Below are positions 4,401-44,401 of a DNA stretch of 64,000 bases, piece by piece. The stretch lies in assembly GCA_902776475.1 (NCBI GenBank), contig CACYQD010000013.1, forward strand, positions 1 through 64,000, in the 5' to 3' direction. The notes under the pieces are model-generated. The model was not told the DNA's origin, did not search any database, and saw only the letters and a program-made list of their open reading frames with translations. A program made the position numbers and the translations under genes. How positions within the stretch are numbered: position 1 is the first letter of the stretch; each line of letters opens with the position of its first letter. This DNA is from an uncultured Prevotellaceae bacterium (GTDB lineage: Bacteria; Bacteroidota; Bacteroidia; Bacteroidales; Bacteroidaceae).

Positions 4401-6851
4401 TCACCTCACCTCCAGCTGAATGCTGTCTTTGACCAATCCGACAGCTTTGGCAGTAAGAGTGACGTTCCCGGGAGACTTGTCAGCCCGAAGGACGACAAGG
4501 CATTTACCACCGAAAGCTTTCCGGTTATCAGCCTTGAAGCGTTCCAATGATGTCTGGCAGCCATTATCGACGCCCTCAATCCTCGCTTTTCCCGAGACAT
4601 CAAAGAAAATCTGGTTCTCAGCATAAGGACAGAGGTTGCCATCTTTGTCGAGCACTTCCACCGTCACGAAGGCCAGGCTCTTGCCATCAGCGTCGAGGGC
4701 CATACGATCGGTGTTCAAACGGATTTTGGCTGCAGGTCCGGCTGTATGCAGCACTTGCCGCCGCACTTCGCGACCATCCTTTCGAGCCACCACCATGGCC
4801 TCGCCTGGCTGGAAAGTCACGCGCCACATCACATGATACTGGTGGGAGTCAGCCTTCCGCCGGACACCCTGGCTTGTGCCGTTGATGAACAGTTCCACCT
4901 CGTCGGCCTGGTTGTAATAGCACCAGAGGTCGATGGTCTGTCCCTCAATCCAGTTCCAATGAGGAAAGAGGTGGAGCACCGGTTTGTCCGTCCACTCGCT
5001 CTGATACATGTAATAAGTATCCTTTGGGAATCCGGCAAGGTCGATGAGACCAAAGTAACTGCTACGGGCAGGATAGTTGTATGGGGTCGGTTCACCGATA
5101 TAGTCGAAACCCGTCCAGATAAACTGTCCACCCACGAAGTCGTTGTGCTTGACCACGTCCCAAGTCTCCTCATGGGTACTGCTCCATGAAGCGTGCATGT
5201 TGTCGTAGGCGCTGCACTTGAATGAAGGGTCAGTGTAGGGCAGCCACCATTCCACCGGAGCCTTATAGACCGAGTCGCTCGGCATCATGTAGAATCCCCT
5301 CGTCTGCAGGGCAGAGACGCTCTCGCTGAAGATGAACGGTTTTCCCGGGAAGTTTTGCGGCACATCCTTCACCCACTGATGATGATAGTTGAAACCGATG
5401 ATATCGATGGCACCACTTTTGAACAAGTGGTTGCCCGGGGCTGGTTCATTGCACCCAGCGGTGATCGGACGCGTCGTGTCATACTTTCTCACAATCTCGG
5501 CAAGATGGCGGGTGAGCAAGGAGTTGACGCTCAGTTCGCCTTCCTTGGCCAAGGTGGATGCATCATGGCCTGCATTGAGGATCAGGTTGGCCTGTTCGAG
5601 GGTCAGGGTATCGGCCTCAGCCGACGACCATTGTTCGAGCACCTCATTGCCGATGCTCCACATCAGGATGGAAGGATGGTTGCGGTCGCGCAGGATCAAG
5701 TCGGAGAGGTCGCGCTCATGCCACTCGTCGAAGAACCGTGCATAGTCGTTCTGGGTCTTTTTCCTGCGCCACATGTCAAACGACTCATCCATGACGATCA
5801 GTCCCATGGTGTCGCACATGTTGAGGAGTTCCGGAGCAGGAGGATTGTGAGAACAGCGGATGGCGTTCACGCCCATCTCCTTGAGGATGCTCAGTTTACG
5901 GTGGAGGGCATCTTCGTTGATGGCTGCTCCCAGGCACCCCAGGTCATGGTGCTCACAAACCCCATTGATCTTCATGGACTGCCCATTGAGGGAGAACCCT
6001 TTTTGGGGGTCGAATTTGAAATAGCGGAAGCCCGTGACCGTCTCCACCTCATCCACGACCTGGTTGTTGACCAGGATTTCGGTTCTCACCTTATAAATAT
6101 AAGGGTCGGTGACCGACCACAGATGAGGCCGGCGGACTTTGAGTTTTGACTGAAGTTTGGAACTGGCACCCTTGGCCACCACCAAGCAGTTGGCGTCGAG
6201 CACCGTATTGCGCATGGTGGGCCGCACTTGGGCATTCGGGGTGACGCATTTCACCTCCACCTCCACATCGCCCTGCGAACTGGTTTTCACATATACCCCC
6301 CAGTGGTCGATGTGCACATCAGCTGTGGAGGTCAGCCACACGTGCCGGTAGATGCCGCAACCGCTATACCAGCGGGAGTTGGGCTGGTCGCTGTTGTCCA
6401 CCCTCACGGCGATGACGTTGTCGCCATCTCGGTTCAGGTATGGTGTGAGTTCATATTCAAACGAACTGTATCCATAGGGCCGGTTGCCCAAGAGATGTCC
6501 GTTGACATAGACCGTGGCATTCATATAGACGCCATCGAACTCGATGAAGTATTTGTCGGCACTGCCAACCTTGAAATGCTTCCTGTACCATCCGACCCCA
6601 CCAGGCAGTGCTCCCCCACCCGCTCCGGAAGGATTGGCAGGAGAGAAATCGCCCTCGATGGCCCAGTCATGAGGCAAGTCGAGCTGTCTCCACCCAGAGT
6701 CGCCATAGGATGCGGATGCCATCTGAGCAGAGTCAGCCAGGGCAAAGAGCCATCCCTCGTCAAAGCATTTGCGCTCTCTCGCACTGGCTTGCACCAGTGC
6801 GAAAAGAGCGCAAATGAGTGTTAGCGAAAGTCTTCTCATATCCGATATCAT
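4401..6851 (-). CDS. GH2 beta-galactosidase, DUF4982 type, secreted
   Basis: Glycoside hydrolase family 2 enzyme of 816 residues with an N-terminal signal peptide (hydrophobic stretch at about 8-22). Domain order: jelly-roll sugar-binding domain (about 30-180, with the GVGWYRKHF motif), immunoglobulin-like domain, TIM barrel (about 285-590), then DUF4982 and a C-terminal Ig-like domain. The general acid/base is E403 in WSIGNE and the nucleophile is E510 in FIFSES, both in normal context. The start overlaps the stop of the GH31 gene by 4 bp (ATGA), so the two are probably translationally coupled. A beta-galactosidase next to an alpha-xylosidase fits removal of xyloglucan side chains, as in the Bacteroides ovatus xyloglucan locus. 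The specificity is inferred; GH2 enzymes of this layout can also be beta-glucuronidases or others. Confidence 0.9.
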   Translation of the reverse strand: MISDMRRLSLTLICALFALVQASARERKCFDEGWLFALADSAQMASASYGDSGWRQLDLPHDWAIEGDFSPANPSGAGGGALPGGVGWYRKHFKVGSADKYFIEFDGVYMNATVYVNGHLLGNRPYGYSSFEYELTPYLNRDGDNVIAVRVDNSDQPNSRWYSGCGIYRHVWLTSTADVHIDHWGVYVKTSSQGDVEVEVKCVTPNAQVRPTMRNTVLDANCLVVAKGASSKLQSKLKVRRPHLWSVTDPYIYKVRTEILVNNQVVDEVETVTGFRYFKFDPQKGFSLNGQSMKINGVCEHHDLGCLGAAINEDALHRKLSILKEMGVNAIRCSHNPPAPELLNMCDTMGLIVMDESFDMWRRKKTQNDYARFFDEWHERDLSDLILRDRNHPSILMWSIGNEVLEQWSSAEADTLTLEQANLILNAGHDASTLAKEGELSVNSLLTRHLAEIVRKYDTTRPITAGCNEPAPGNHLFKSGAIDIIGFNYHHQWVKDVPQNFPGKPFIFSESVSALQTRGFYMMPSDSVYKAPVEWWLPYTDPSFKCSAYDNMHASWSSTHEETWDVVKHNDFVGGQFIWTGFDYIGEPTPYNYPARSSYFGLIDLAGFPKDTYYMYQSEWTDKPVLHLFPHWNWIEGQTIDLWCYYNQADEVELFINGTSQGVRRKADSHQYHVMWRVTFQPGEAMVVARKDGREVRRQVLHTAGPAAKIRLNTDRMALDADGKSLAFVTVEVLDKDGNLCPYAENQIFFDVSGKARIEGVDNGCQTSLERFKADNRKAFGGKCLVVLRADKSPGNVTLTAKAVGLVKDSIQLEVR

Positions 6852-37407: not shown

Positions 37408-39576
37408 ATGGACAAGAACGCCATCTATCGAACCAAGCTCTGTCTGATCCGTCATGATCTCGGCGGAGCACTTGAAACTATCCGTCCGCTCATGGAAGAC
37501 CTCGCCTATGCCCGTCTCCATGACACCATCACACAAGTCGATGGCGACTACCAACGGATGCTGTCGTATCTGCGGCAAGGCTATCCCGATCCCTCCCGCG
37601 ACAAGATGTATCTCTCTTTGCTCCGCAAGTTGGACCGCTGCGTGAACGACGCCGCGCTCATCCTCCGCACCCAGAAAGACCCGCGCCAAAGCATCTATGC
37701 CACAAAATCACAGCGCTTCATGCTCAGTGAACAGGAGACCGCCAAGCGCATCGAGGATTTTGTCAGCGAGACCGCCCTTTCTCAACTCGACGGAGCTGAT
37801 GACAGTCATCTCGAAGAGCTCTACAAGTCGCATCACGAGCTGATGTCCTCCTTGTTCGAGCACCTCTGCTTCTCCCCCCAATGGCATAGGAGCGACCAGG
37901 AGTTTTATGAAAGTCTGATACTCTCCCCCACCATCGACATCACCGATGCCGCCCTCCTGACGAGTGCCATCACCCTCTCGGTCATCACCCATTTCGACAT
38001 CCACAAATACATCACTCTCGCCCATATCTATCAGAAGGCAGGCGACGAGCAGCTCCGTCAGCGCGCCCTTGTGGGATGGGCGCTGACCACCACCCGCAGC
38101 CACACGCTCTATGATGAAGTCAGGCCTCTGGTGGAAGACATTCTCCACGACGAGCAGTCCTCACAGCAGGTGCTGGAGACCCAGATGCAGATGATTCTCT
38201 GCATGAATGCCGAGCAAGACCAAGAGACCATCACCCGTGACATCATGCCCAATATCATGAAGAACAAGGGGTTTGACATCACCCGCAACGGCATTGTGGA
38301 GAAAGAAGACGACCCCATGCAGGACATCCTCGACCCCGATGCTTCCGACAGGATGATGGAAGAGTTGGAGAAGAGTTTCCATCAGATGAGTGAGATGCAG
38401 CGCAGCGGCAGCGACATCTATTTCGGCGGTTTCTCGAAAATGAAGCGCTACCCCTTCTTCTACACCCTCTCCAACTGGTTCTGCCCGTTCTACGCCGATC
38501 ACCCCGGTCTTTCCGTCACTCGTACCAAACTCAAGGGGAAGGCCTTCCTCGACACGCTGATGAAATCCGGTCCGTTCTGCGACAGCGACAAATACTCCTT
38601 CGCCATTGCCATGGCGACCGTGATTGACAAGATTCCCGACAACATGAAATCGCTGCTCAATGACAGTTCCTCTTTTGGTCCCATGGCCTCTGACGAATTC
38701 CTGCAATCACCCGCCAACATCCGACTGAGATATCTCCAGGACCTCTACCGCTTTTTCCGGTTGAGCGACCAGCGCATCTGCTTCTACAACCCCTTCGGGG
38801 AAGACAAAGGAAAGAACAGCCTGTTTCTCACCAATGACATCCTTCTCCCTTCAGTCAAGGAAACCGATGTGCTGCGGTTTGGCAATGAATTGTTGAAGCG
38901 CCGTCAGTTCCCGCTCCTTGAAGCCCTGCTGACGCGCTGTGGCAACCGTTTCACATCCGCCAGGTTCAAGATCCTGACCGGATACAGCACCCTGCAACAA
39001 GGTCAATTCACGACAGCCGCCGAAGCATTCAGAAGTGCGCTCGACGAACTACCCGGCAACAAGCGGGCCCTTCTCGGTCTTGCCCGTGCCGCCACCATGT
39101 CGGGCGACTATGCCCAGGCAGGAGAAGCCTACCGCATCCTGCACGAGCTCTCCCCCGACAATGCCACCCATGCCCTTAGTCTGGCCATCATCCTGACCAA
39201 GGAAGACAAGGCCGCTGATGCCCTGCCCATTCTATACAAACTCCATTACGAGGACGAGCAAAATCTCCAAGTGGTGCGTGCCTTAGCATGGGCCCTGCTT
39301 GCCAGCCGCAAGCCCGACCAAGCCAGCAAGACCTACTCCAGGATTGCAGACAGCGGCAAGTTGATTGCCCAAGACCATCTCAACATCGGCTATTGCCAGT
39401 GGCTCCAAGGAGACATCGATTCCGCCATCCAGTCCTTCAAGCATTATCTTGAAGACCAGTCCGGGCGCACCACTCCAGCGTCCTTGATGGAAGATTTTGA
39501 GAAAGATGAACCCATCCTCCAAGCCAACGGAATCACCCATTATGAGCTGCTCATGATGGCCGATCTTGTCAAATAG
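37408..39576 (+). CDS. Large TPR protein, function unknown
   Basis: A 722-residue helical protein with no signal peptide or membrane segment, so probably cytoplasmic. The N-terminal half (about 1-330) is all-helical without a family I recognise. The region from about 490 to 690 contains several tetratricopeptide repeats (S-T-L-Q-Q-G-Q-F-T-T-A-A-E-A-F-R-S-A-L-D; A-G-E-A-Y-R-I-L-H-E-L-S-P-D-N; G-D-I-D-S-A-I-Q-S-F-K). Such repeats form protein-binding solenoids. It follows the substrate-binding lipoprotein by 12 bases. The pair has no known pathway. Confidence 0.8.
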   Translation: MDKNAIYRTKLCLIRHDLGGALETIRPLMEDLAYARLHDTITQVDGDYQRMLSYLRQGYPDPSRDKMYLSLLRKLDRCVNDAALILRTQKDPRQSIYATKSQRFMLSEQETAKRIEDFVSETALSQLDGADDSHLEELYKSHHELMSSLFEHLCFSPQWHRSDQEFYESLILSPTIDITDAALLTSAITLSVITHFDIHKYITLAHIYQKAGDEQLRQRALVGWALTTTRSHTLYDEVRPLVEDILHDEQSSQQVLETQMQMILCMNAEQDQETITRDIMPNIMKNKGFDITRNGIVEKEDDPMQDILDPDASDRMMEELEKSFHQMSEMQRSGSDIYFGGFSKMKRYPFFYTLSNWFCPFYADHPGLSVTRTKLKGKAFLDTLMKSGPFCDSDKYSFAIAMATVIDKIPDNMKSLLNDSSSFGPMASDEFLQSPANIRLRYLQDLYRFFRLSDQRICFYNPFGEDKGKNSLFLTNDILLPSVKETDVLRFGNELLKRRQFPLLEALLTRCGNRFTSARFKILTGYSTLQQGQFTTAAEAFRSALDELPGNKRALLGLARAATMSGDYAQAGEAYRILHELSPDNATHALSLAIILTKEDKAADALPILYKLHYEDEQNLQVVRALAWALLASRKPDQASKTYSRIADSGKLIAQDHLNIGYCQWLQGDIDSAIQSFKHYLEDQSGRTTPASLMEDFEKDEPILQANGITHYELLMMADLVK

Positions 39577-39671
39577 AAGAAAAAAACACATTTTCCACGC
39601 AAGATTTCAGGAAAAATCAGTTTTAAGAATAGCCACACCCTTGGGAAGAGGCAGATGCAGTACCAGTGCCC

Positions 39672-40217
39672 ATGACAGAGCAACAAATCGTAGAAGCCAT
39701 CAAAAGAGGAAGCCGTCAAGCCATGCGAGCACTGTATGACTCATTGGCAGGCTTCGCCATGGCCACAGCGCTGCGCTACTCTCCCGAACAAGAAGAGGCC
39801 AAAGACATTCTGCAAGATAGTTTCCTGAAAGTGTTCGGTCATTTCGACCAATTTCACTATCAAGGAGAGGGTTCATTGAAAGCGTGGGTACTGAAAATCG
39901 TCTCCAACGAAGCCATCAGCCACCTCAACAAGCAAGCTCGCATCATCTATACCGACACACTCGCCGACCAGCCTGAGGAAGAGGAAGAAGTGGACATCAA
40001 CCCCATTCCCCCCAAGGTACTCACCCAAATGATCGGCAGTCTTCCTCCCGGTTACCGCATGGTGTTCAACCTCCATGTGTTTGAGGAAAAGAGCCACAAA
40101 GAAATCGGCCATCTGCTCGGTATCAAGGAAAACTCCTCTGCCTCACAGTTTCTGCGGGCCAAGAGGATACTTGCCAAACTCATCAACGAATACAAAACAC
40201 GACATCATGAAGAATAA
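39672..40217 (+). CDS. ECF sigma factor paired with a Dma-type anti-sigma
   Basis: An extracytoplasmic-function RNA polymerase sigma factor of 181 residues. Region 2 is visible at about 10-75 (YSPEQEEAKDILQDSFLKVF; the -10-binding part) and region 4 at about 115-170 (LPPGYRMVFNLHVFEEKSHK with the following helix-turn-helix K-E-I-G-H-L-L-G-I-K-E-N). ATG 39672 is preferred over a GTG two codons upstream. The next gene starts 11 bases before this one stops, so the two are translationally coupled; this is the common arrangement of a sigma factor and its anti-sigma factor. Confidence 0.9.
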   Translation: MTEQQIVEAIKRGSRQAMRALYDSLAGFAMATALRYSPEQEEAKDILQDSFLKVFGHFDQFHYQGEGSLKAWVLKIVSNEAISHLNKQARIIYTDTLADQPEEEEEVDINPIPPKVLTQMIGSLPPGYRMVFNLHVFEEKSHKEIGHLLGIKENSSASQFLRAKRILAKLINEYKTRHHEE

Positions 40218-41538
40218 GGACTGGATCACCCAACTGAAGTCAAAAATGGCCTCCCATCAGGAAGAAGTGCCAGATGGACTCTGGGAGAAGATTGAGCCGT
40301 CGTTACCCGCCAGGCCGAAATCTCGCCCGACCATCTTCACTCCGGTCTACCGATATGCAGCTGCGGCAGCTGTGCTGGCCCTTCTCGGCGGCACTGTGGC
40401 TGTCTGGCATCCATGGAATTCAGAAGACCCATCTTTGGCTCTCAGCACAACAAAACAGCCTGTGGAAGTCGCATCACCCACCCATGAGGGACAAGAAGCC
40501 CCATCGGTTCTCCCCATGCAAACCTCTGAACCGGCATCAGAGGTCATGCAGGAAGGAAGCCGCCCGATGTCTTCCTCCTCCGGAGCAACTACTCAAGTGG
40601 ATAAGCCCATGACAAAGGCAGGGTCACGGTCATCCGCCACGGAATCCTTGACCGCTATGGTATCGACACCACCAGAGTCTGTGCAGGCCCCAAAGTCAGA
40701 GTCAGTCCAAGCCCACAAGTCAGAGTCAGAACCAAACCATGAGGCTAAAGCCGGGTTAAAACAAGAGTCTGAGACAAGGCAAAACCATGAGGCGGTTTCC
40801 GGAAAACCCGAAGATACGCAGCCGCGCCAGCTGTCACCCGTCAATGAACGGGAGAGTCAGATTCTGCAAGCACTTGAATCCGGCATCAATACTACCCGAA
40901 AAAGCCATGGCAGCACATTCGGTCTTTTTGCCCAAAATGACTTCGCCACTATCAGCACCCGTCAGACGACAGGCAATTATACGATGGCCAACGAAGCACT
41001 CTTCGGATCGGATGACGAATGGAACACCATGATGTCGCCCAGGTTCAGCAAGAAGACCAAGCATCACCGTCCCTACTCCTTCGGACTGAATTTCCAGTTT
41101 CCCCTCGCCAAGCGGTTGTCCCTGCAGACAGGTCTCGTCTATACTTATGTGCACTCTGATTTCATCACGGAGTCGCCCGACAATTCGGTGAAACGAGAGC
41201 AAACGCTTCACTATGTCGGCATCCCCGTCAGTCTGATGTATACCCTATGGCAGGCAGGCCATTTCTCCATCTATGCCAACGGAGGAGGCCAAGCCGACCT
41301 GAACGTCAAAGCGACCATGAAAAGCAATGGTGAGAAGAGGGATATCGACAAAGACCGCATGCAATTCTCCGCACTGTTCGGATTAGGCGGTCAATATCAA
41401 ATAACCCCATACATGGGCATATATGTCGAACCCAGCATGAGGTATTATTTTGACAATGGCAGTGAGGTGGAAAACATTTTCAAGGAGCATCCCTGGAAAT
41501 TCAGCTTCCATTTCGGATTCCGGTTCAATGTGCCCTGA
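40207..41538 (+). CDS. Dual-membrane anti-sigma / outer-membrane beta-barrel protein (Dma-like)
   Basis: A 443-residue protein with three parts. A cytoplasmic N-terminus of about 45 residues (D-G-L-W-E-K-I-E-P-S-L) resembles anti-sigma domains of Bacteroidetes. One inner-membrane helix lies at about 48-67. Next comes a long Ser/Glu/Lys-rich linker (about 75-250) with repeats such as S-E-S-V-Q-A. The C-terminal domain (about 280-443) has amphipathic strands typical of a small outer-membrane beta-barrel, ending in F-G-F-R-F-N-V-P. This layout matches the dual membrane-spanning anti-sigma factors (Dma) described in Bacteroides thetaiotaomicron, where the barrel sits in the outer membrane and the N-terminus holds the sigma factor. 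I recall this family from the literature; the match is by architecture only. Confidence 0.82.
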   Translation: MKNKDWITQLKSKMASHQEEVPDGLWEKIEPSLPARPKSRPTIFTPVYRYAAAAAVLALLGGTVAVWHPWNSEDPSLALSTTKQPVEVASPTHEGQEAPSVLPMQTSEPASEVMQEGSRPMSSSSGATTQVDKPMTKAGSRSSATESLTAMVSTPPESVQAPKSESVQAHKSESEPNHEAKAGLKQESETRQNHEAVSGKPEDTQPRQLSPVNERESQILQALESGINTTRKSHGSTFGLFAQNDFATISTRQTTGNYTMANEALFGSDDEWNTMMSPRFSKKTKHHRPYSFGLNFQFPLAKRLSLQTGLVYTYVHSDFITESPDNSVKREQTLHYVGIPVSLMYTLWQAGHFSIYANGGGQADLNVKATMKSNGEKRDIDKDRMQFSALFGLGGQYQITPYMGIYVEPSMRYYFDNGSEVENIFKEHPWKFSFHFGFRFNVP

Positions 41539-41549
41539 CGGGGGGGTGT

Positions 41550-42278
41550 CTAACCCACAGAGACCATGAACCGCCGGGAATCCTCCCAGGCGTCAACAAA
41601 CTGGTCCAAAGGATACTGGTCAGTGTCGTTGGCGCTTTGCGGGTCGTGCACCGTCACGATATCCTTTAAGACATCGACGTGCTGGACGATGACGGCATGG
41701 TTGGCCGTCTCTCCCATCTCGACATCCTTGATTTTCTCTGAAGGATAATTCCCTATCAGTTCATTGCCATCGACAGCGACAATCACGTCGTGCCCGGCAT
41801 TCAGTTCATCGACGAGCATATCGATGCTGCATTCAAACCGCCGGTGCACTTCCAGTCCTGCCATCTCCAGCAATTTTCCGATATGGTAGAGCGGTGTGCC
41901 CTCCTTTCTGAGCCAGCGGTGTCTCAAAGCCTCCGCCCTCATCTCCTGTTCATCGAAATCCACCCCTCTTTTCTGCAAGACCAGTTGTTCGCAAGCCAAC
42001 ACACAGTCGTTGCAGTCGGTATCGGCAGCCATGGCGGAATAAGGTATGGAACAAAGCGGAGAGATTCCATCCAAGGTCTGTTTTCCCTTTCTGGCAGGAT
42101 CAGACTTCGAGGTGAAATCCGGATTGAACTTCCGGTCCACGTCATCATAGAGACCGATGAGCCGAGCCAGTTCATCATCCTGTTTTGCCATTTGCACAAT
42201 AGCCAATGTCTCCTCAAGGGAAGTCCGTCCCTCGAGGAAGGCATCCAACAACTCATCTGTCAGAACAGTCTTAGCCAT
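41550..42278 (-). CDS. C39-like cysteine-peptidase-like protein coupled to an ECF sigma
   Basis: A 242-residue soluble protein with no signal peptide or membrane helix. Residues 1-50 (LTDELLDAFLEGRTSLEETL...) resemble the N-terminal helices of anti-sigma factors, without the zinc Cys/His. Residues about 85-240 look like a C39-type papain-like fold: C92 in D-C-V-L-A-C aligns with the catalytic Cys, H194 in N-H-A-V-I-V with the catalytic His, and D212 in H-D-P-Q-S with the Asp. The usual oxyanion Gln and the Gly after Cys are not obvious, so activity is uncertain. It starts one base after the stop of the ECF sigma gene. A sigma-regulating or substrate-processing role is inference; I know no described system with exactly this layout. 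Confidence 0.7.
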   Translation of the reverse strand: MAKTVLTDELLDAFLEGRTSLEETLAIVQMAKQDDELARLIGLYDDVDRKFNPDFTSKSDPARKGKQTLDGISPLCSIPYSAMAADTDCNDCVLACEQLVLQKRGVDFDEQEMRAEALRHRWLRKEGTPLYHIGKLLEMAGLEVHRRFECSIDMLVDELNAGHDVIVAVDGNELIGNYPSEKIKDVEMGETANHAVIVQHVDVLKDIVTVHDPQSANDTDQYPLDQFVDAWEDSRRFMVSVG

Positions 42279-42279
42279 T

Positions 42280-42921
42280 TCATCTACCTCCTTCTTCTTT
42301 TAGCGCAGTCCGGCGGAGCGCCTTCATGGCCCTCGTCCTGATATTGTAGACTGCTTCAATCCGCACTTGCAGTTCCTCTGCCACCTGTTGTGGTGAGCAT
42401 CCCTCGATATCCAGCCGCCGTATCACGAGGATGTATCTTTCCACATCCCGCAACCGCTGTCCCCTCTTTCCTTGTTTCATGAGCAGGAACAACTGTTCGA
42501 CCTGCATTTGGGCATCCACCTCATCCAGTTGGCGTGTGCTGACTGCATTCTGACTATATAGAGACACCGACGACGTATTTCCTATCAGTTGATTTTTATT
42601 TCTGATAAAAAATCTGATCGCGACCCTGTTGAGCCAGGTAAAGAGGGAGCTTCTGAAAGAGAAAGACCTCAGGATGTGGGCATCCACGCCATCCTTACCT
42701 GGCCGCATGAGATAGAGATACAATTCATTGACGAATTCATCGTAATCCACATGATAATCGAATATCCTGTCGATGATGGTGATGAACATCGGCATGCACT
42801 TTCTGAAGAAGAAAGCATGTGTTATGGCCTCATCGTGCCTGAGCAAGGCATCGACCACCTCCTGCTGCGACAAGTCAGTCCCGTTGACCTCGATGGAGAT
42901 GTTGTCAGGCATATTTTTCAT
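42280..42921 (-). CDS. Divergent ECF-like sigma factor
   Basis: A 213-residue sigma-70-family protein. Region 2-like sequence lies at about 35-105 (MPMFITIIDRIFDYHVDYDE then F-V-N-E-L-Y-L-Y-L-M and S-S-L-F-T-W-L-N-R-V-A). A region 4 helix-turn-helix is at about 160-207 (DIEGCSPQQVAEELQVRIEA). The core is weaker than in typical ECF factors and about 30 residues longer. It lies between the Asn-rich secreted gene (20 bases upstream) and the C39-like gene (one base downstream), all on one strand behind the promoter at 43824-43854, so the three form an operon. Confidence 0.8.
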   Translation of the reverse strand: MKNMPDNISIEVNGTDLSQQEVVDALLRHDEAITHAFFFRKCMPMFITIIDRIFDYHVDYDEFVNELYLYLMRPGKDGVDAHILRSFSFRSSLFTWLNRVAIRFFIRNKNQLIGNTSSVSLYSQNAVSTRQLDEVDAQMQVEQLFLLMKQGKRGQRLRDVERYILVIRRLDIEGCSPQQVAEELQVRIEAVYNIRTRAMKALRRTALKEEGGR

Positions 42922-42941
42922 TCAGCGGAAATGGACGAGAA

Positions 42942-43748
42942 TTACTGATGTGAACCGAAATGGCGCTGAGGAGCCGCACCCTGCCCACTCTGCTGGCGGT
43001 TGCTGCTGCGGCTTCCCGTGGTATTTGGAGAAGATTGGTTGTTGCTGGGTTGGTTGAAATGAGGCCTGTTGTTGCCGTTGTTGGAATTAGGCCGGTTGGA
43101 ATTAGGCCGGTTGCCATTGTTGCTGGGATTGTTGCCGTTGCCAAAATGGCGCTGTGGATTTCCATTGAGGTCCGGTCCTTGTCCGGGACGGTATCCGTTG
43201 TTGTTTGAGGGAGGATTTTCATTCCTGAAATTCCTGCCTTGAGAGGAAGGAGCAGGGATATGTCCACGGATAGGTCCGTTGCCGTTGGGAGCGTAATAGT
43301 TACGACCTTGATAATAGCTTCTTGTTCCGATATTCCTTCCGCCCCGATAGACGCCCCAGGACTCAGGTCTGCTGAAATAGAAGAGATGCCTGTCGGTATA
43401 ACGCCCATAGATATTGAGGCTCCACGCCCCCCTGACCCAGTTGAGCGGCCTGTAGAAATAGTTCAACTGCTTATACCGTCTGTATTGCCAAGTTGTGAGG
43501 ACGAATCTCAGGTCGGAATTTCTCCTTTCCCAGAAAATGCCGAATACGTCATCGTTGATATTGACGTTGAGCAGATAGTCGAGGTTGATCTCATAGACCG
43601 CATTCATCTGCTCGGTGGACAGTCTGAGTTCATAAGCCATTTTATCCGTGAGGAACAGAGCCTCACGCTGGGCATACTCATAGCTCATCGCCTGTGCGCT
43701 GATGGCAATCACGATGAAGGACACTAATGACAGGATGGTTCGTTTCAT
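42942..43748 (-). CDS. Secreted Asn/Gly-rich repeat protein
   Basis: A 268-residue protein with a signal peptide (1-19). The N-terminal folded domain (about 20-150) begins with a helix motif E-Y-A-Q-R-E-A-L-F-L-T-D-K-M and the S-T-E-Q-M segment, loosely like CpxP/Spy-type proteins, and is rich in Tyr and Arg (R-Y-T-D-R-H-L-F-Y). The C-terminal 110 residues are low complexity, dominated by Asn, Gly, Pro and Ser. The motif P-Q-R-H-F-G occurs twice, once near the middle of this tail and once at the extreme C-terminus. It is first in the operon with the ECF factor. Function unknown; an envelope-stress sensor or substrate of the system is a guess. Confidence 0.75.
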   Translation of the reverse strand: MKRTILSLVSFIVIAISAQAMSYEYAQREALFLTDKMAYELRLSTEQMNAVYEINLDYLLNVNINDDVFGIFWERRNSDLRFVLTTWQYRRYKQLNYFYRPLNWVRGAWSLNIYGRYTDRHLFYFSRPESWGVYRGGRNIGTRSYYQGRNYYAPNGNGPIRGHIPAPSSQGRNFRNENPPSNNNGYRPGQGPDLNGNPQRHFGNGNNPSNNGNRPNSNRPNSNNGNNRPHFNQPSNNQSSPNTTGSRSSNRQQSGQGAAPQRHFGSHQ

Positions 43749-43823
43749 GATTCAAGAATTTTGGTTATCTTATGGCATATCAATGAGAGGGGAAGCACAT
43801 GTGATTGTCCCCGTCATCGAGTG

Positions 43824-43854
43824 CAAATTTACAAAAAGTAATATACTTGTACAA
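43824..43854 (-). promoter_or_regulatory. Promoter of the Asn-rich/ECF/C39-like operon
   Basis: Minus strand: -33 TTG (43852-43854), 20-base spacer, -7 TAAATTTG (43824-43831), about 75 bases before the ATG at 43748. Confidence 0.65.
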
Positions 43855-43884
43855 CTGAATGGAGCATATTTTTTCATATAAACG

Positions 43885-43915
43885 TTGGCAGATTCCGGAA
43901 AAAATTATAATTTTG
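43885..43915 (+). promoter_or_regulatory. Promoter of the bcp gene
   Basis: -33 TTG (43885-43887), 20-base spacer, -7 TAATTTTG (43908-43915). The start site would be near 43921, 22 bases before the ATG at 43943; this rules out the longer frame from 43859. Confidence 0.7.
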
Positions 43916-43942
43916 CGTCAAAACAACAACAAATCAATTACC

Positions 43943-44401
43943 ATGATTCAGATCGGAGACAAAGCGCCCGAAGTCCTGGGCTATGATGAGAACGGCAAGG
44001 AAGTCCTCCTGAGTGATTTCAAAGGCAAGAAGCTTGTGCTCTATTTCTATCCCAAGGACCTGACTTCGGGATGCACCGCCGAGGCCTGCAACCTGCGCGA
44101 CAACATGGAAGCCCTCAGTGCGCAGGGTTATGCCGTCGTAGGCGCCAGCGTCGATGACGCCAAGTCACACCAGAAATTCATCGCCAAGCATGAGTTGCCC
44201 TTCCCCCTGATAGCTGACACCGAGAAGAAACTGGTGGAGCAGTTTGGCGTATGGGGAGAGAAGAGCATGTATGGCCGAAAATACTTCGGCACGTTCCGCA
44301 CGACCTTCATCATCAATGAGGAAGGCATCGTGGAGCGAATCATCGGTCCGAAGAAGATCAAGACCAAGGACCACGCCAACCAAATCCTCTCCGGCGAATG
44401 A
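43943..44401 (+). CDS. bcp: Peroxiredoxin, Bcp/PrxQ type
   Basis: Thiol peroxidase of 152 residues that reduces peroxides and protects against oxidative stress. The peroxidatic Cys lies in D-L-T-S-G-C-T-A-E-A-C, and the second Cys five residues on is the resolving residue typical of the PrxQ group. The start ATG is set by the promoter directly upstream. The stop overlaps the YjbQ ATG by 4 bp (ATGA). Confidence 0.94.
   Translation: MIQIGDKAPEVLGYDENGKEVLLSDFKGKKLVLYFYPKDLTSGCTAEACNLRDNMEALSAQGYAVVGASVDDAKSHQKFIAKHELPFPLIADTEKKLVEQFGVWGEKSMYGRKYFGTFRTTFIINEEGIVERIIGPKKIKTKDHANQILSGE

Follow-up and report, generated by a model that had tools for sequence, protein, structure and literature searches.

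Positions 41,550 to 43,748 of the window, the whole 64,000-nucleotide stretch of contig CACYQD010000013.1 that was analysed, raise the question of what a sigma factor gene is doing between the genes for an Asn-rich secreted protein and for a soluble protein with likeness to both anti-sigma factors and C39 peptidases, and which of the three belong together. The window is part of a 3.64 Mb assembly (93.64% complete) of a Prevotella-like gut bacterium. We propose, with moderate confidence, that 41550-42921 encodes a sigma factor together with an anti-sigma factor for it that is soluble and cytoplasmic, that a C39-like domain would serve as the gate between them, that in relatives the input would come through RyR and TIR domains, and that the copy in the window is an orphan.

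The open reading frame list shows the three minus-strand genes where the original prediction had placed them, and as tightly packed as it had said, with 20 bases from the stop of the secreted gene to the sigma start and 1 base from the sigma gene to the C39-like gene. On the minus strand of 41401-44000, the sole TAnnTTTG motif found by a motif scan lies 5' of the secreted gene, which is consistent with the predicted sharing of one promoter by the three genes, and co-transcription of the secreted, sigma and C39-like genes is plausible. In a search for a conserved autoregulatory promoter, TAnnTTTG was found 5' of 20 of 74 family sigma genes, a modest excess over the 6.2 in base shuffles.

Features of the locus in window coordinates (residue numbers are those of P0001)
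Feature	Position	Strand	Basis
Anti-sigma-like and C39-like protein P0001, 242 aa	41550..42278	-	ORF; family profile E 2.1e-87 in the window
Sigma factor P0002, 213 aa	42280..42921	-	ORF; sigma70-ECF profile E 1e-10
Asn-rich secreted protein P0003, 268 aa	42942..43748	-	ORF; judged to lie outside the conserved cassette
N-terminal anti-sigma-like helical stretch, residues 1-62	42093..42278	-	Aligned with 33 relatives
C39-like domain, residues ~79-242	41553..42044	-	Profile comparisons
Cys92 codon, putative nucleophile	42003..42005	-	C in 75/75 aligned rows
His194 codon	41697..41699	-	H in 75/75 aligned rows
Asp212 codon	41643..41645	-	D 67, E 7, N 1 of 75 aligned rows
Bacteroidetes-type promoter match TTG-N20-TAAATTTG	43824..43854	-	Motif scan

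The surrounding interval 39577-43858 is variable, with five genes between the TPR gene (37408-39576) and bcp in the window, and in one related genome (G036, locus L243) the TPR gene is followed by bcp after just 0.2 kb, without these five intervening genes. On the plus strand at 39666-41538, another ECF-like sigma gene overlaps a gene whose product would have a membrane stretch and end in a porin-like part, and a pair related to these two genes was found in a further genome (G009, locus L244).

A trio operon, in which P0001 would act as the processing enzyme of P0003, would fit the tight spacing and the one promoter motif that precedes the three genes, but we give this reading very little credence in view of how the genes are distributed. 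The conserved trio was rejected because the secreted gene is common in the genus, its N-terminal part having homologues, often multicopy, in 135 of 150 genus genomes, and because it stands beside none of the fetched sigma-C39 pairs except that of the window. No homologue of it adjoined any of the 80 loci in which the C39-like protein carries a RyR domain (RyR-type loci, the best 80 of 514 relatives), the 20 loci examined first or the 12 fetched loci of RyR-less pairs; reciprocally, among 30 fetched loci around secreted-gene homologues, a called gene being obtained in 28, the family sigma occurred in the window's own locus alone. G063, the one relative with a readable downstream side of the secreted-gene orthologue, keeps bcp, yjbQ and an acyl-CoA ligase gene on the other side (79-88% identical) and has neither sigma nor C39-like gene within ~4.5 kb downstream, while the contig of G049 ends within the orthologue and its sigma-C39 pair sits on another contig. 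Where the secreted gene meets the pair, the arrangement is thus specific to the lineage, so far as the comparisons with G063, G036 and G049 show. Processing of P0003 by P0001, also put forward originally, was rejected for the lack of genomic association and because P0001 has no export signal; the N-terminus of P0003 is signal-peptide-like. P0003 had no match in Pfam or NCBIfam, and of the P-Q-R-H-F-G repeats described in its tail, the motif is there twice (residues 198 and 260) but is thin as a repeat, given that some repeated 6-mer arises in 1.7% of shuffled P0003 tails. Thus what recurs in relatives is a sigma and C39-like pair and not three genes, and the secreted gene looks like a chance neighbour.

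The pair itself is a conserved cassette. Searching named genomes by pattern yielded 514 confirmed relatives, and the locus analysis was made on the best 80; since the search patterns were derived from the RyR part, RyR-type genes are favoured among these 80. Full-length C39-RyR proteins are encoded in 74 of the 80 loci, and five pairs of them are more than 90% identical. The family sigma gene lies directly upstream in 78 of the 80 loci, the remaining two (L094 and L096) beginning at a contig end, and its 3' end often runs into the beginning of the partner gene. It is likewise directly upstream in 12/12 RyR-less, short relatives, whose loci were fetched from the RyR-less members found in the family profile search, and within three other genera several RyR-less pairs were met repeatedly at a shared chromosomal site. 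Among the fetched relatives, then, the sigma neighbour is nearly universal, so that the original suggestion is not undone by homologues lacking it. Within the genus, homologues of P0001 were found in 18 of 150 genomes (the window's own included), homologues of P0002 in 17 and both together in 13. The family profile matched in 62 of 301 genomes at E <=1e-8, some of these matches covering the RyR part alone, and a RyR-free version of the profile in 10 of 295 genomes of the order; a single-protein scan of genome contigs detected no relative. By these profile matches the distribution of the family is patchy but wide. In a quick tree, the long branch of P0001 falls within no small group that is well supported, and the RyR-less forms need at least three changes, so that a single loss of RyR is indistinguishable from several.

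P0002 reached 41.5 bits against the ECF model TIGR02937 (cut-off 42.9) and 19 bits against Sigma70_r4_2 (cut-off 25.7). For its partner, an anti-sigma-like N-terminus had been predicted, which stood up in the relatives by profile and not in P0001 on its own: among the N-termini of 34 family members, zf-HC2 matched 23, RseA_N 16 and NF010501 ('putative anti-sigmaE') 16 at E <=0.1, and the N-terminus of P0001 alone matched none of the three at this threshold. When the N-terminal profile was compared with the PDB, calmodulins came first at E 0.02, which we take as chance, and the RseA domain 8z6g was found at E 0.15, a weak match; with calmodulins at the top, the anti-sigma reading gains no structural backing of its own from this comparison. 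P0001 has no membrane anchor, as the original prediction had it, its highest 19-residue Kyte-Doolittle mean being 0.89, and the reading of P0001 as a membrane anti-sigma was rejected for lack of such a hydrophobic anchor; a 19-residue mean above 1.6 occurs in 8 of the 74 RyR-type proteins. The sigma neighbour in both sets of loci and the C39 profiles together support the suggestion that P0001 may be an anti-sigma factor that is soluble and works by the logic of a protease or of a pseudo-protease.

Profiles point to membership of the remaining domain in the C39 family. P0001 itself scored 20.7 bits against Peptidase_C39_2, below the curated cut-off of 24, which three relatives surpass (L069 27.8, L080 27.1 and L081 25.0 bits); among 70 family members, Peptidase_C39_2 matched 33 (best E 1.9e-7) and Peptidase_C39 15. 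The best PDB chain for the family profile was 3erv, a putative C39-like peptidase, at E 1.9e-4, in an alignment that covers the His and Asp stretch, the Cys being aligned by a weaker stretch. Cys92, His194 and Asp212 are present in the predicted order, with the column counts given in the table. In C39 peptidases, a Gln six residues before the Cys forms the oxyanion hole. This Gln is mostly absent here, occurring in 2 of 75 aligned rows and in 1 of the 12 RyR-less rows, the window having Asp, and catalysis is therefore doubtful. By the alignment, then, the Cys-His pair is under strong constraint and the usual oxyanion residue is mostly gone. We see an appreciable, though lesser, chance that the C39 domain is a non-cutting, pseudo-protease sensor which binds a ligand or partner and acts by shape change alone. 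The rarity of the canonical Gln would fit this, as would the replacement of Asp212 by Glu or Asn in 8 of 75 rows and the residues that follow the Cys, an invariant Glu at +5 and Cys at +4 in 72 of 75 rows, where dynamin-associated relatives have S-Q at +4/+5 and, in 6/6, the Gln at -6. However, Cys92 and His194 are invariant across several Bacteroidales families, which is unusual for a dead enzyme, and we suggest that the Asn found at -2 from the Cys in 65 of 75 rows might replace the Gln. The relatives with Gln at -6 (L073, L080, L081, L083, L084 and L085) make up a second C39-like branch; by Pfam, the neighbours of L080 include genes of dynamin-like and Hsp70-like type, and the other five loci look similar by eye.

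Most of the relatives found carry a RyR domain (PF02026) at the C-terminus, in a search that favoured RyR-type genes; in three relatives scanned, it matched at E 2.2e-28 to 1.5e-30. The RyR part of the L089 protein matches animal RyRs and the Bacteroides RyR-like structures 4n05 and 3nrt, the latter presumably a Bacteroides thetaiotaomicron protein. According to the accessible part of a preprint (PMC13232231), which also mentions a Bacteroides thetaiotaomicron RyR-like protein, phage members of PF02026 bind cyclic ADP-ribose signals, and the phage protein RyDEP holds 3'cADPR via H75, W78, H100 and D117. Mapped by the spacing of these contacts and not by alignment of the RyDEP sequence, 74 C39-RyR proteins have His (74) and Trp (74) at the first two positions and Asp (72) at that of D117; the fourth contact position, that of H100, is His in just 36 (Thr 22, Asn 10, Asp 6), which speaks against our main reading. 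Twelve viral contigs (L169-L180) match the RyR stretch of the query alone and encode candidate stand-alone phage RyR proteins like RyDEP.

A TIR match, by a profile built from six TIRs beside relatives with Pfam as a check, was found in flanks of up to 8 kb at 48 of the 80 RyR-type loci, 46 of them among the 74 that encode a full-length protein; the fetched flanks of the other 32 gave no such match. A within-genome control took 37 hand-chosen loci of the 80, in genomes of ~100 Mb with 174 PF13676 matches: the loci make up 0.6% of the DNA and hold 44 TIR genes (own profile) in 23 of the 37, an enrichment of ~42-fold that compares two different profiles and uses rounded genome sizes, and for which a binomial value says little, since TIR genes cluster in runs. 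In the genus sample, 26 of 60 genomes had a TIR match; in two genomes, G018 and G025, all TIR matches (6 and 10, respectively) lie on the contig of their RyR-type gene. The first same-strand downstream genes (n=61) encode TIR_2 (16), Peptidase_M48 (14), PrsW (7), RyR (6), AAA (4) and SIR2_2 (3) proteins. After the C39-RyR gene of L099 (9136-10850), an M48 peptidase gene, a gene of unknown type and a zinc-ribbon gene (~879, 258 and 507 bp) form a set that recurs in several loci.

Such mixed neighbours, TIR_2, Peptidase_M48 and PrsW among them, would also be expected if the sigma pair merely travelled in defence islands without using the products of TIR enzymes, and the 32 loci without a TIR match fit this too, as does the occurrence of TIR genes in runs, which makes single TIR counts not independent. 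We regard clustering of this kind as possible, if somewhat doubtful. It sits poorly with the near-invariance of the RyR residues at ligand-contact spacing, and with the restriction of TIR matches to one class of locus, since they were found in 46 of 74 regions with RyR and in 0 of 12 RyR-less regions (3-19 kb; Fisher 3.7e-5, overstated because the genomes are related). TIR without RyR does occur, as among 13 genomes chosen for RyR-less pairs a RyR match was found in 3 and a TIR match in 7. In L215, a sigma-C39 pair without RyR is preceded at a distance of ~5.5 kb by a separate RyR gene (6236-6682).

P0001 ends after the C39 domain, without RyR. In the genome of the window, 93.64% complete as given above, neither PF02026 nor PF13676 was matched, and the window itself holds no TIR either; with neither RyR nor TIR detected, the pair in the window is the orphan form. 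This lack, and the present position of the pair behind an unrelated gene, could also mean that it is a decaying remnant without present function. We consider such decay improbable, as neither reading frame is broken and the catalytic residues are still there, and as RyR-less pairs have been maintained at recurring sites on the chromosome in several genomes belonging to three other genera.

Our preferred reading, that of a gated sigma switch, builds on computed observations, namely the conservation of the pair, the domains assigned by profile, the near-invariant Cys-His-Asp residues and the TIR enrichment. The N-terminal helices of the anti-sigma would hold the sigma factor, and the papain-like C39 domain would be the gate which, on a signal, cuts or changes shape so that the sigma factor is released. 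In most relatives found, the C-terminal RyR domain would receive an ADP-ribose-type signal from the neighbouring TIR enzyme, and this TIR-RyR-sigma switch may work like the CRISPR-associated Calp and CASP systems, from which we propose, by analogy, the release of sigma by a protease-gated anti-sigma. Sigma binding, cleavage or allostery, the ligand and the regulated genes are what we infer. More tentatively, we suggest a Bacteroidales family of switches in which a TIR signal acts on the RyR domain, a receptor akin to the R12 repeat of ryanodine receptors, of an anti-sigma/papain-like protein and thereby frees a dedicated sigma factor, with the window holding a stripped core that may answer to a different input.

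Two systems in which a protease frees a sigma factor from its inhibitor during infection are described in the accessible parts of the respective papers, Calp of type III CRISPR (CalpL/CalpT/CalpS; PMC12751052) and CASP of type III-E CRISPR (Csx29/Csx30/CASP-sigma; PMC10028731). Like the proposed switch, Calp joins a second messenger of nucleotide type to a protease, an anti-sigma and a sigma factor, with transcription as the output; it differs in that the messenger is cA4, the sensor is SAVED and the protease is a Lon protease whose target is a separate anti-sigma (PMC12751052, accessible part), whereas here the sensor would be RyR, in relatives, and the papain-like and anti-sigma-like domains are in one protein. 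In CASP, likewise, a cysteine protease controls the inhibitor of an ECF-like sigma, but Csx29 is a TPR-CHAT protease controlled by target RNA, and the inhibitor that it cleaves is a separate protein (PMC10028731, accessible part). With Thoeris and RyDEP, the likeness lies in PF02026 domains that bind cyclic ADP-ribose signals made by TIR enzymes; RyDEP is described as a phage enzyme or sponge removing the signal (PMC13232231, accessible part), whereas here RyR is the proposed host receptor fused to a sigma regulator, and the copy in the window is without it. The C39-like peptidases (PF13529, PF03412; 3erv) share the Cys-His-Asp order and the profile matches, but most rows of our family lack Gln at -6, the anti-sigma-like N-terminus is fused, and no transporter or secretion role is evident. 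Classical ECF sigma/anti-sigma pairs of the zf-HC2/RseA type resemble the locus in the adjacent sigma and anti-sigma-like genes and the helical N-terminal stretch, but P0001 has a C39-like domain instead of a membrane anchor.

PADLOC-DB 2.0.0 returned 0 families for P0001, P0002 and the L089 C39-RyR protein. The Aravind group's studies of bacterial conflict systems may mention RyR domains. In the open literature, which leaves most subscription papers aside, we found nothing on a sigma factor with an anti-sigma/C39(/RyR) protein, and the accessible parts of PMC7159879 and PMC8195603 mention neither RyR nor C39. We rate signal-controlled sigma release as already known and its anti-sigma/C39(/RyR) form as new.

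For the window, a puzzling trio is replaced by a conserved pair and a chance neighbour. If the proposed switch is true, its TIR-linked branch would join the few circuits that lead from a nucleotide signal to a sigma factor, of which Calp is one, and the protease-to-sigma circuit CASP. Bacterial RyR domains would gain a role as receptors, which bears on the nucleotide-binding repeat shared by animal ryanodine receptors, and TIR immunity would, in these bacteria, act through a sigma factor.
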